This document shows positions 7,343 to 13,970 of a stretch of 64,000 bases of DNA, one piece after another. Position numbers and translations under genes: made by a program. The stretch's first letter is position 1. The number at the start of each line of letters is the position of its first letter. The notes under the pieces were generated by a model. The model was not told where the DNA came from and did not search any database. It saw nothing but the letters and a program-made list of their open reading frames with translations. The DNA lies in NCBI RefSeq assembly GCF_023195835.1, contig NZ_CP096199.1, forward strand, positions 1,860,001-1,924,000, in the 5' to 3' direction. The stretch comes from Vibrio sinaloensis (lineage in GTDB: Bacteria; Pseudomonadota; Gammaproteobacteria; Enterobacterales; Vibrionaceae).

Positions 7343-8008
7343 CTATGCGATTTGCAAATACTTATGGGTTTGTACGGACAAACGCCAATTATTCTTGATA
7401 CAAGACTCAATGCAGAGTTCTGTCGCTCTTCTTCGCTGACTGATAGGTTGCAACCCAACAATCACGTCTTGTCGAACATCAAATTCTTGGAGGAGTGCCT
7501 CTAAATTATCAATATCCTTCTGCGTACCAACTGGATATTTAATTTCGTTGGCTCGAGACATGGCCTGCGCTTTAATGTCCAAACCACCTTTCATATCGAG
7601 TTTGGGTGATACCGTGACCCACGTTCTATCGCTTGTAACAACATCAAATGTACCACTTGTTTCAATCTGACAGGTGAAACCACTCTTCTCGAACCTGGCA
7701 GTGATCTCTCTTAGGTCATATATACAAGGCTCACCACCCGTTATCACTACGTGCTTGGCTGTATAACGCTGTTGGCATTCTTCAACAATTGTTCCTGTTG
7801 GAACTTGGCACCAACTATCACTTTCCGTTCGCTTATCTCTAATTGACTCAAGCGAAGTTTGTTGGTCTAAATTAACTTCCCACGTGTGCTTGGTATCACA
7901 CCACGCACACCCGACAGGGCAACCTTGCAACCTCAAAAATACGGAAGGTACGCCTGTAAATACTCCCTCACCTTGAATGGTCTCAAAGATCTCATTGACT
8001 TTTAGCAA
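7343..8008 (-). CDS. queE: 7-carboxy-7-deazaguanine synthase (radical SAM)
   Basis: Radical SAM enzyme that contracts 6-carboxytetrahydropterin to 7-carboxy-7-deazaguanine. The cluster motif C30-x3-C34-x2-C37 lies in QGCPVGCAWCDTKHTW, preceded by the QueE-typical ETIQGEG. GGEP, a SAM-binding motif, follows near residue 90. The start is a TTG at 8008 with GAGGTG upstream, overlapping the end of dpdB by 17 bases. It belongs to the dpdA-dpdB-queE-queC-folE operon and supplies the precursor that QueC converts to preQ0. Confidence 0.94.
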   Translation of the reverse strand: MLKVNEIFETIQGEGVFTGVPSVFLRLQGCPVGCAWCDTKHTWEVNLDQQTSLESIRDKRTESDSWCQVPTGTIVEECQQRYTAKHVVITGGEPCIYDLREITARFEKSGFTCQIETSGTFDVVTSDRTWVTVSPKLDMKGGLDIKAQAMSRANEIKYPVGTQKDIDNLEALLQEFDVRQDVIVGLQPISQRRRATELCIESCIKNNWRLSVQTHKYLQIA

Positions 8009-9107
8009 CTAAAACACCTCTTTCAAGTTTGCCATACACAGTTGTTAAATATTTCGTCACCATGGATATGTCTTGACTCAAATTTTGTAACTGATTCCAT
8101 TTTCTAACGATGGGTTCTCCATCTATGTCGTTACCCAACTCCCAGTAACCCTCACTCCATGAACAGTAGGGTTTGATGCGAAATAGTTGCTCTACACTGT
8201 ACTCAAAAAAATCTTTGCCCGGTTTTTTCGCTAGATATGAATAGTAAATCTCATCAAACAACTGCCCCAACGCGATGATACCCACTCCATGAAACAGGCG
8301 AGATTCCCTTGGTTTTTTACCCCAGTCATCATAAAAAATTTCTTTCACTGCTCTGAAATAATTGCTTAGGAGATCAACTGCATCTTTACAATCTTCCTCA
8401 GCATATTTGCCATGGGATAATTCACAAAAATCGTACAAAGCTCCTTCTCGCAAACTATTGTCAACCATTTTCATCATAGAACTGTCCGCTATCAACCCTT
8501 CTGGATTGGTGGTTAACTTAATTAATCCCTTAAGGGGGGATTCGGACTTGTAATTTAATAACTGAACTATGAATGAGGGTAACCTCTTTCGTGTCAAGTC
8601 TTCATTAAAAATGCCGCTGGCATGTGGTAGTAACTCATTTATTAAGCTAAGGGGAAGTGGTCTTGCAGAGTTGATCAGTAAAAACTGCTGTCTTTCGAAA
8701 TCGGTGTCATCATTTATAAAAATACATACAGGATAGTTAAAATCCAATCTACCTGAACGTCGCAATGCGGCTACCCTCTGCTGACCATCAACTAACACAG
8801 CGCTATTGGTTTTCTCAGGGATGTGCAAGGTATAGATCCCTTCCCCCTTAGACTCAATACTTGTTTTTGAGGTAGCACATATTATGATCGAGTTGGGAAT
8901 GACAGATTTTTCAGAGCAAATATAGTCTGTGATGTTGTCTACATGTTTTTTCAACTCTGTTCGTTGATACCCCATTAAAGAGTTGTCATCTGAGCGAAAT
9001 ATTCTTGAAATAGTACAAACAGACTCTATTTCAGCAATATTCATTGTAGTGACGAACAGCTTAACCTCATGGCATTGCTCCACTCGAAGAGCGATTTTTT
9101 TAAGCAT
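7992..9107 (-). CDS. dpdB: DpdB-like DGQQR-motif protein (first copy)
   Basis: A 371-residue DndB/DpdB-type protein with the signature DGQQR at residues 107-111 in a ParB-like region (VLVDGQQRVAALRRSG), then PVCIFIN. Family members (DGQHR domain) pair with DNA sulfur-modification or Dpd systems; DpdB is required with DpdA for inserting preQ0 into DNA. The ATG at 9107 is preferred; a TTG directly before it at 9110 is also possible. It overlaps the dpdA stop by eight bases and is followed by queE, overlapping by 17. It is a clear paralog of the protein at 12747-13970: both share GYQR-x-EL-x-KH-x(3)-ITDY near residue 50 and a GYW-x-LG motif near the end. Confidence 0.85.
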   Translation of the reverse strand: MLKKIALRVEQCHEVKLFVTTMNIAEIESVCTISRIFRSDDNSLMGYQRTELKKHVDNITDYICSEKSVIPNSIIICATSKTSIESKGEGIYTLHIPEKTNSAVLVDGQQRVAALRRSGRLDFNYPVCIFINDDTDFERQQFLLINSARPLPLSLINELLPHASGIFNEDLTRKRLPSFIVQLLNYKSESPLKGLIKLTTNPEGLIADSSMMKMVDNSLREGALYDFCELSHGKYAEEDCKDAVDLLSNYFRAVKEIFYDDWGKKPRESRLFHGVGIIALGQLFDEIYYSYLAKKPGKDFFEYSVEQLFRIKPYCSWSEGYWELGNDIDGEPIVRKWNQLQNLSQDISMVTKYLTTVYGKLERGVLVAKSQ

Positions 9108-12741: not shown

Positions 12742-12746
12742 GAAAA

Positions 12747-13970
12747 ATGACCGAAACACTGAAGATAAAAGTAATACAAGAGAACGTTAACGGTGTAACC
12801 GTCTACACAGGTTGGGTTGAAGGTAAGAAAGTTCGAGATGTAGCTAAGATTGTACATATCACTCGTGAAGGTGAGTACATTCAGGGATACCAACGTAACG
12901 AACTTCCCAAGCATATAGAATCAATCACAGACTACGTTGAGTCTAAGAACTCAACAATTTTAGCTAACCTTGTGATCGGCTTTAATAATACAGTAGTGTT
13001 CGAGCCTATCGCTGAAGGCTCAGAATTTGGCCACCTTATCGTTCCTTACGATCCTGAACTGCCATCAAGCCAACTTCCAGGGGCAATAGTCGATGGCCAG
13101 CAAAGATCAGGTGGTGTAAAGAACAGCCACCATGATACATACCCGTTGCCGGTTTCTATCTTTATTTCTGAAGACGAAAACGACTATATACAGCAGTTCC
13201 TAATTCTTAACTTAGGCAAACCACTAACTTCAGTGCAGCTTAACGCACTGGCACTATACGACGATATATACAAGCCGCCAGCACTTGCTGAGAAAGCTTT
13301 CCCGCTTTCCATTTGCGAGGAGCTAGGGTTCAAAAATGAAAAATCTCCACTGGTTGGGCTTATAAAATCAAATGGTAATAAGGATGGCATAATCGCAGAG
13401 TCTTCCATTACAGAGTTTGTAATGAATGTTAAACGTCAGGCATTGCAGACTATTGGGGTTAGAGTATATCAGGACCTAGACTGCGAAAAGAGGGAGGAGT
13501 TTGTTCAAATTCTGGTCAATTTCTGGAAAGCTGTGACGGAGGTCTTTGCGGAAGACTGGGCTTTGAAGTCGAGAGATATGAAAAGAACATACATCACTCA
13601 CGGTACGTCGATCATTGGATTTTCGTATCTTTGTAGACATATGCTAAGAACATTCCAAACACCAAACAAAAATGTTGGTAATGAGTCAATTCTAACACAT
13701 AAACTACCTTCTACGGGCTTCTTCAAAAAAGAGCTACACCTGTTGAAAGATAAGTGCAACTTCAGCAAAGGGTATTGGATTCTTGGTGTAGCAAGGAGCC
13801 ACGATTTAGAGGGCAAAGCCAACCCTGAACTCGAAGCTCTCCCTTATTCAAGACGTTGGAATGACTTCCAAAACACTACGTCTGAAAAACAGTTATTTGC
13901 TACCAACATCTTGAGGCTATATGAAATTAGTAAAGGTTGGAGAAATGACTACCCCATTTTCATCGAATAA
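12747..13970 (+). CDS. Second DpdB-like DGQQR-motif protein
   Basis: A 407-residue DndB/DpdB-family protein with DGQQR at residues 116-120 (AIVDGQQRSGG) followed by LPVSIFI. It is paralogous to the protein at 7992-9107, sharing GYQRNEL, KH-x(3)-ITDY, the FLILN/FLLIN stretch after the motif, and a C-terminal GYW-x-LG. It follows the second DpdA by five bases, mirroring the dpdA-dpdB order of the leftward operon. A hairpin terminator follows at 13986. The role inferred is the partner ATPase/targeting protein for the second transglycosylase. Confidence 0.78.
   Translation: MTETLKIKVIQENVNGVTVYTGWVEGKKVRDVAKIVHITREGEYIQGYQRNELPKHIESITDYVESKNSTILANLVIGFNNTVVFEPIAEGSEFGHLIVPYDPELPSSQLPGAIVDGQQRSGGVKNSHHDTYPLPVSIFISEDENDYIQQFLILNLGKPLTSVQLNALALYDDIYKPPALAEKAFPLSICEELGFKNEKSPLVGLIKSNGNKDGIIAESSITEFVMNVKRQALQTIGVRVYQDLDCEKREEFVQILVNFWKAVTEVFAEDWALKSRDMKRTYITHGTSIIGFSYLCRHMLRTFQTPNKNVGNESILTHKLPSTGFFKKELHLLKDKCNFSKGYWILGVARSHDLEGKANPELEALPYSRRWNDFQNTTSEKQLFATNILRLYEISKGWRNDYPIFIE

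Follow-up and report, generated by a model that had tools for sequence, protein, structure and literature searches.

Two DpdA–DpdB pairs in a single Dpd island of Vibrio sinaloensis

The writer pairs and the island around them

The window analyzed here is a 64,000-nt stretch of the Vibrio sinaloensis genome (NZ_CP096199.1, assembly GCF_023195835.1, positions 1,860,001–1,924,000; the genome is hereafter G000). It holds the right-hand part of one Dpd island, the dpdD–K restriction block of which lies mostly to the left of the window. In the Dpd system of Salmonella Montevideo, DpdA–C form the writer, DpdD–K carry out restriction, and there is a single dpdA–dpdB pair. The island studied here has the same gene families, with dpdD–K and the genes for 7-cyano-7-deazaguanine (preQ0) present, but contains two dpdA–dpdB pairs instead of one. 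An earlier note on this DNA had given one dpdA and one dpdB as the norm; the island departs from it with two of each, and as the norm is the note's own rather than a definition found in print, the departure marks a variant. DpdA, DpdB, DpdC and the restriction block all belong to known families, and the two-pair layout is a variant of the known anti-phage Dpd island. The writer genes, in window positions, are as follows.

7992–9110, minus strand: dpdB1, the DGQHR protein of pair 1 (PADLOC PDLC02811, 387.6 bits; NF041060, 403.6 bits, cut-off 300)
9100–10317, minus strand: dpdA1, the DNA transglycosylase of pair 1 (PADLOC, 546.6 bits; 7UI4, 410.6 bits; catalytic residues kept)
10318–10426: divergence gap between the writer operons (88 bp when dpdC starts at its first ATG, 109 bp when it starts at an inner one)
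10406–11359, or 10427–11359 from the inner ATG, plus strand: dpdC, head of the pair 2 operon (PADLOC DpdC, 233.4 bits)
11356–12741, plus strand: dpdA2, the DNA transglycosylase of pair 2, from a distinct long-stem clade and with extra helices at about 302–324
12747–13970, plus strand: dpdB2, the DGQHR protein of pair 2 (PDLC02812, 740.8 bits; NF041060, 200.5 bits, cut-off 300)

The earlier note had placed two DpdA–DpdB pairs back to back at these positions in one Dpd island, and profile matches for all four proteins bear this out. It had also read the catalytic aspartates, the Cx-Cx2-C...H zinc site and the DGQQR motif correctly: DpdA1 carries D94/D255 with zinc ligands C364/C366/C369/H391, DpdA2 carries D100/D264 with C414/C416/C419/H440 in invariant alignment columns, and DGQQR occupies residues 108–112 of DpdB1 and 116–120 of DpdB2. 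The two operons do diverge, as the note described, but the shared gap, put there at 110 bp, does not border pair 2 directly: dpdC, which the note overlooked, lies between them, so that the right-hand operon reads dpdC–dpdA2–dpdB2, and the size of the gap between start codons depends on which dpdC start is chosen. A promoter scan of the gap gave no sigma-70-type consensus. We found no second copy of dpdC in the island; DpdC scores 29.5 bits against Pfam DUF6884 (cut-off 30) and has no NCBIfam match.

Both transglycosylases match the NCBIfam DpdA model well above its cut-off of 200 (536.1 bits for DpdA1, 458.5 for DpdA2). DpdA2 reaches 500.1 bits against the PADLOC DpdA model, and the match of DpdA1 to 7UI4 spans 398 of 405 residues. 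DpdA1 and DpdA2 share 35% identity, DpdB1 and DpdB2 29%. Among the best 120 of 282 homologues, 26 proteins form the DpdA2 clade at ≥63% identity, and the next are at ≤39% (alignment A1 comprises 24 of these 26, without P0006 and P0015); likewise, 27 proteins resemble DpdB2 at ≥62%, and the next stands at 30%. All 32 DpdA1-group and all 33 DpdA2-group rows retain the two aspartates and the zinc ligands, one histidine falling in a gap of one row, in a table of 247 of 248 rows (length filter 370–520 aa, which leaves out P0015; P0147, a Moritella DpdA1 copy, is counted with the other DpdAs). Judged by sequence, both pairs are intact, apparently active writers.

The remainder of the island comprises the preQ0 genes, the restriction block and genes for mobility.

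6025–6648, minus strand: folE, GTP cyclohydrolase I, step 1 of preQ0 synthesis (PF01227; NF006824, 313.5 bits, cut-off 202)
6662–7333, minus strand: queC, preQ0 synthase (PF06508, E 1.8e-81)
7343–8008, minus strand: queE, 7-carboxy-7-deazaguanine synthase (TIGR04322, 351.3 bits, cut-off 200)
14541–15431, plus strand: queD-like protein (PTPS), completing the preQ0 pathway (PF01242, 53.1 bits, cut-off 22.4; TIGR03367, 46.5 bits, cut-off 89.25)
2067–5276, minus strand: dpdE, SNF2-like helicase at the head of the restriction block (PADLOC DpdE, 1120.9 bits)
1–2070, minus strand: 5′ part of dpdF, crossing the left window edge (PADLOC dpdF; full gene G000:C1 1859557–1862070)
Left of dpdF, reaching 1847365: dpdG, H, I, J, K and D (PADLOC dpdG, H, J, dpdD, I, K; open reading frames)
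15840–17968, minus strand: mobility genes, TraI_2-type at 15840–17399 and MobI at 17438–17968 (PF07514, PF19456)
19313–20539, minus strand: tyrosine integrase (PF00589 plus arm and central domains)

DpdI is the weakest match of the restriction block (50.7 bits, PADLOC). The queD-like protein has 296 aa and two PTPS stretches, which is long for QueD. A small protein adjoins dpdB2 at 14020–14364; relatives of 80–85 aa lie beside a dpdB in G1007, G005, G542 and G529, and no match was found in G983, G868 or the five islands read that have pair 2 alone. The Dpd island is mobile. A 26-base palindromic sequence at G000:C1 1847154–1847179 recurs at window positions 25992–26017, the right copy lying beside a tRNA-Ser gene (26029–26116), and its 22-base core occurs, with ≤2 mismatches, in just these two places genome-wide; the two copies may mark where a 38.8-kb island ends on either side. 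G+C content is 41.8% in window positions 1–20600 and 47.0% in the remainder.

Distribution and history of the two pairs

The prevalence of DpdA was taken from searches with the PADLOC model (E ≤ 1e-20) in overlapping samples, instead of from a contig scan with two short patterns, which returned five loci. DpdA was found in 5/329 genomes of Vibrionaceae, with two DpdAs in all five, and in 8/295 of the Colwellia family sample, with one each. The order sample yielded six genomes out of 394, three of them with two DpdAs (the window's genome and two of the Moritella group), and the phylum sample three out of 398, with two DpdAs in the window's genome only. A close dpdA is present in 159 of 5426 E. 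coli genomes at one place each (by megablast, too insensitive for a diverged second copy), and 20 plasmid records likewise have one place each at E ≤ 1e-5.

The earlier note had called for a survey of genomes with both pairs together, and seven have them: four of the Vibrio group, one Photobacterium and two of the Moritella group, in three gene orders. The divergent order occurs in the window's genome, G005, G983 and G1007; because the last three, which are of the same genus, have the same layout, it is not chance. Photobacterium (G868) has the tandem order A1-B1-C-A2-B2 and is the only genome in which dpdC is co-directional with dpdA1, and the pairs of the Moritella group (G542, G529) lie apart, with about 7 and 19 kb between them. 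Five genomes have pair 2 alone (G605, Psychromonas; G1058, Colwellia; and G1317, G1188 and G1236, of Colwellia's family), with no second DpdA genome-wide at E ≤ 1e-20. Their islands read dpdC–dpdA2–dpdB2 like the window's, with DpdA2s 63–64% identical to that of the window, and differ from it by having no second DpdA. No genome with pair 1 but not pair 2 turned up in these samples; the tree described below does not include the lone DpdAs of G1286 and G1288 (43–44% identical to DpdA1). dpdC–dpdA2–dpdB2 is contiguous in 12/12 islands and dpdA1–dpdB1 in 7/7.

At least six further DpdA1/DpdA2 protein pairs apparently come from one genome each (among the best 120 of 282 and the best 120 of 2593 homologues), which suggests that more two-pair islands exist. 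The single-writer islands of the Colwellia family (G1217, G1286, G1288) are ordered dpdC–dpdA–dpdB–queC; they differ from the window's island in having an ordinary DpdA of 409–416 aa, one per genome. A further departure from the single pair is seen in G381 (L038:9455–13857), where the order dpdC–dpdB–dpdA–dpdB places two different DpdBs on either side of one DpdA. G1164 (L070:8967–11054) encodes a 695-aa protein that weakly resembles DpdC at its N terminus (39.8 bits) and matches DpdA over residues 288–672 (412.2 bits), a candidate natural DpdC–DpdA fusion. We did not use a joined DpdA1–DpdB1 frame of 775 aa in G983 (L056:10953–13280) as proof of partnership, a homopolymer at the junction making a frameshift or sequencing error possible.

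GATOR-GC counts extra dpd copies, among them 801 additional copies of dpdB; the portion of that source available to us gives counts only, with no two-pair layout and no mention of Vibrio (PMC11888242). In the literature searched, the scope of which left out the primary Dpd papers, we found no description of two writer pairs in one island, nor any explanation of how bacterial Dpd writers select their targets.

A quick tree of 113 of the 247 rows, with supports from the Shimodaira–Hasegawa-like approximate likelihood ratio test only, places both DpdAs, as the earlier note had proposed should be done. DpdA2 forms a separate, single clade (33 rows, support 100) on a stem of 2.22 changes per column. 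The DpdA1s of two-pair islands, a group set beforehand by identity or island label, also cluster together, with support 97 without Moritella (30 rows) and 90 with it (33 rows). Distances in the DpdA1 and DpdA2 trees are correlated across 12 DpdA1–DpdA2 pairs (Mantel r 0.71, 0/9999 permutations as high), 5 of the 12 being assigned to one genome by inference only. The simplest reading of these sequences is that the two pairs joined early and afterwards were mostly inherited or transferred as a unit.

In Moritella, purifying selection acts on both pairs: between the two genomes of this group, the ratio of nonsynonymous to synonymous substitution rates (dN/dS) is 0.13 for dpdA1, 0.15 for dpdB1, 0.08 for dpdA2 and 0.07 for dpdB2. 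These ratios, together with the intact residues, disfavour a decaying second copy. A phage origin of the DpdA2 clade was also set aside: a weak scan with two short patterns only detected no relative among viral contigs, and one phage record matched at 33.5% identity.

Exchange of writers and restriction blocks

Across six two-pair islands, the writer genes and the preQ0 genes have diverged in parallel (r 0.61–0.99), dpdE taking a different course (r −0.38 to 0.05). These correlations rest on 10 or 15 island pairs, with the near-copy G529 left out; when the near-identical genome pair, which lacks dpdE, is included, the correlations of the writer genes are swollen to 0.77–0.99. The same independence is seen in single comparisons. 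For instance, the dpdD–K proteins of G983 and G868 are 77–98% alike, with DpdA1 at 43%, DpdB1 at 49%, DpdC at 30%, DpdA2 at 68% and DpdB2 at 69%. Their type of block also accompanies a lone pair 2 in G605 (dpdJ 68%) and an ordinary single writer in G1217 (dpdJ 64%), and is common to G1007 as well. G605 and G1217 are alike in queC (79%) and dpdJ (71%) and far less so in dpdA (42%), dpdB (30%) and dpdC (40%). Conversely, G1058 and G1317 have DpdA2 and DpdB2 98% alike, with dpdD at 26% and dpdK at 33%. The dpdF values of G605 and of an Enterobacter plasmid were left out of these comparisons, the protein picked there being that of dpdJ, and no dpdE turned up in the regions examined for G605, G1058, G1217 and the Enterobacter plasmid.

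Restriction blocks and writers have thus undergone independent exchange, and blocks are therefore seemingly not tied to one writer. One dpdJ each is present in 11 of the 12 genomes searched; G529 has no dpdJ match genome-wide, yet keeps both writer pairs and the preQ0 genes. From the co-residence of blocks and writers in these genomes, we read the block as accepting the mark regardless of which writer made it.

What the two pairs may do

The explanation we prefer, and to which we give roughly even confidence, is that the two DpdA–DpdB pairs are parallel writers with different target contexts that share one preQ0 supply and one restriction block. FolE, QueD, QueE and QueC would make preQ0, and DpdA1 with DpdB1 and DpdA2 with DpdB2 would each swap guanine in DNA for preQ0, by the chemistry of the known system, each DpdB presumably serving the neighbouring DpdA. 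By the same analogy, DpdC would then convert the base to an amide. The single dpdD–K block would attack unmarked DNA, recognising the mark in general and not as the product of one writer. If the writers mark different sequence contexts, together they would cover the genome better, and both would be kept. By analogy to the second specificity that some restriction systems acquire, different contexts are the most likely distinction. More tentatively, the two marks may be distinguishable, by context or by 7-substituents that depend on the altered loops of DpdA2 and the Vibrio DpdA1s, and so form a two-channel deazaguanine code checked by one exchangeable block.

Several observations weigh against parallel writers with different contexts. 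The faster evolution of pair 1 (mean A1/A2 path ratio 1.6) could reflect weaker constraint. The two DpdA trees are not the same: in the DpdA1 tree the Aliivibrio pair branches outside Vibrio, and in the DpdA2 tree, a small one in which several inner branches are weak, it groups weakly among Vibrio. Between G005 and G983, dS is saturated for five of eight genes, so that dN/dS is readable for three only. Moreover, G983 and G868 have a common block despite only 43% identity in DpdA1, which suggests that the exact target of pair 1 is irrelevant to the block, and blocks that do not track writers fit redundancy as well as they fit different contexts.

It is possible, if doubtful, that the pairs differ instead in the base they write. 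Pair 2 with DpdC would yield 2′-deoxy-7-amido-7-deazaguanosine (dADG), and pair 1 would leave the preQ0 deoxynucleoside (dPreQ0) or take another 7-deazaguanine, giving a two-base code. The position of dpdC at the head of the dpdA2–dpdB2 operon in 12/12 islands favours this, as does a loop that in tRNA-guanine transglycosylase (TGT) sits at the 7-position of the base and may bear on its 7-substituent. The loop differs among DpdA2 (GGM-[IV]-K-[SA]-K, K in 33/33), most of the DpdA1 group (mostly GG[IVL]-[VI]-[TS]-L; T or S in 25/32, P in 7/32) and other DpdAs (GGM-V-P-L-K, P in 166/182), and archaeosine TGT has GGVVPL at the aligned place. TGT binds its ligand through Asp102, Asp156, Gln203, Gly230 and Leu231 (PMC5395182). 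However, the P form of the loop is retained by the DpdA1s of Moritella, Photobacterium and Aliivibrio. Because queC directly follows dpdB2 in 5/5 islands with pair 2 alone, pair 2 too is likely to use preQ0. The position of dpdC also says little, as dpdC is at the same time the head-to-head neighbour of dpdA1 in divergent islands, and in the known system one pair with DpdC already yields both bases (PMC12839542).

A redundant or dose-raising second writer, acting at the same sites and retained because it speeds up marking or guards against self-restriction should the other be lost, seems unlikely. It would agree with the occurrence of one block type with pair 2 alone, an ordinary pair alone and both, and with the retention of both pairs in G529 without dpdJ. 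On the other hand, the low identities between the pairs (35% and 29%), their fixed partners and the long DpdA2 stem (2.22) argue for a change in function and against a gain in copy number.

The heterodimeric transglycosylase that the earlier note entertained is highly improbable in the form of an obligate DpdA1–DpdA2 dimer. Eukaryotic TGT offers a precedent as a heterodimer, but one of its subunits lacks the catalytic residues, which are intact in both DpdAs. DpdA2 is the sole DpdA in five whole genomes, each DpdA has its own DpdB beside it, and the Moritella-group pairs stand well apart; what also speaks for a dimer is that bacterial TGT, a relative, is functional only as a homodimer (PMC5395182). 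We give equally little credence to one pair being a sensor or self/non-self check and not a writer, as the catalytic residues are all kept in both pairs and we see no sign of a sensing role.

These comparisons suggest that Dpd islands are assembled from writer modules and restriction modules that can be exchanged. Genomes provide a natural set in which one block type accompanies an ordinary writer, writer 2 by itself or both pairs, and in which near-identical writers occur with unlike blocks; writer specificity and block tolerance are therefore testable by comparing a few islands. Two intact writers in one island offer a way to ask what each of them marks.
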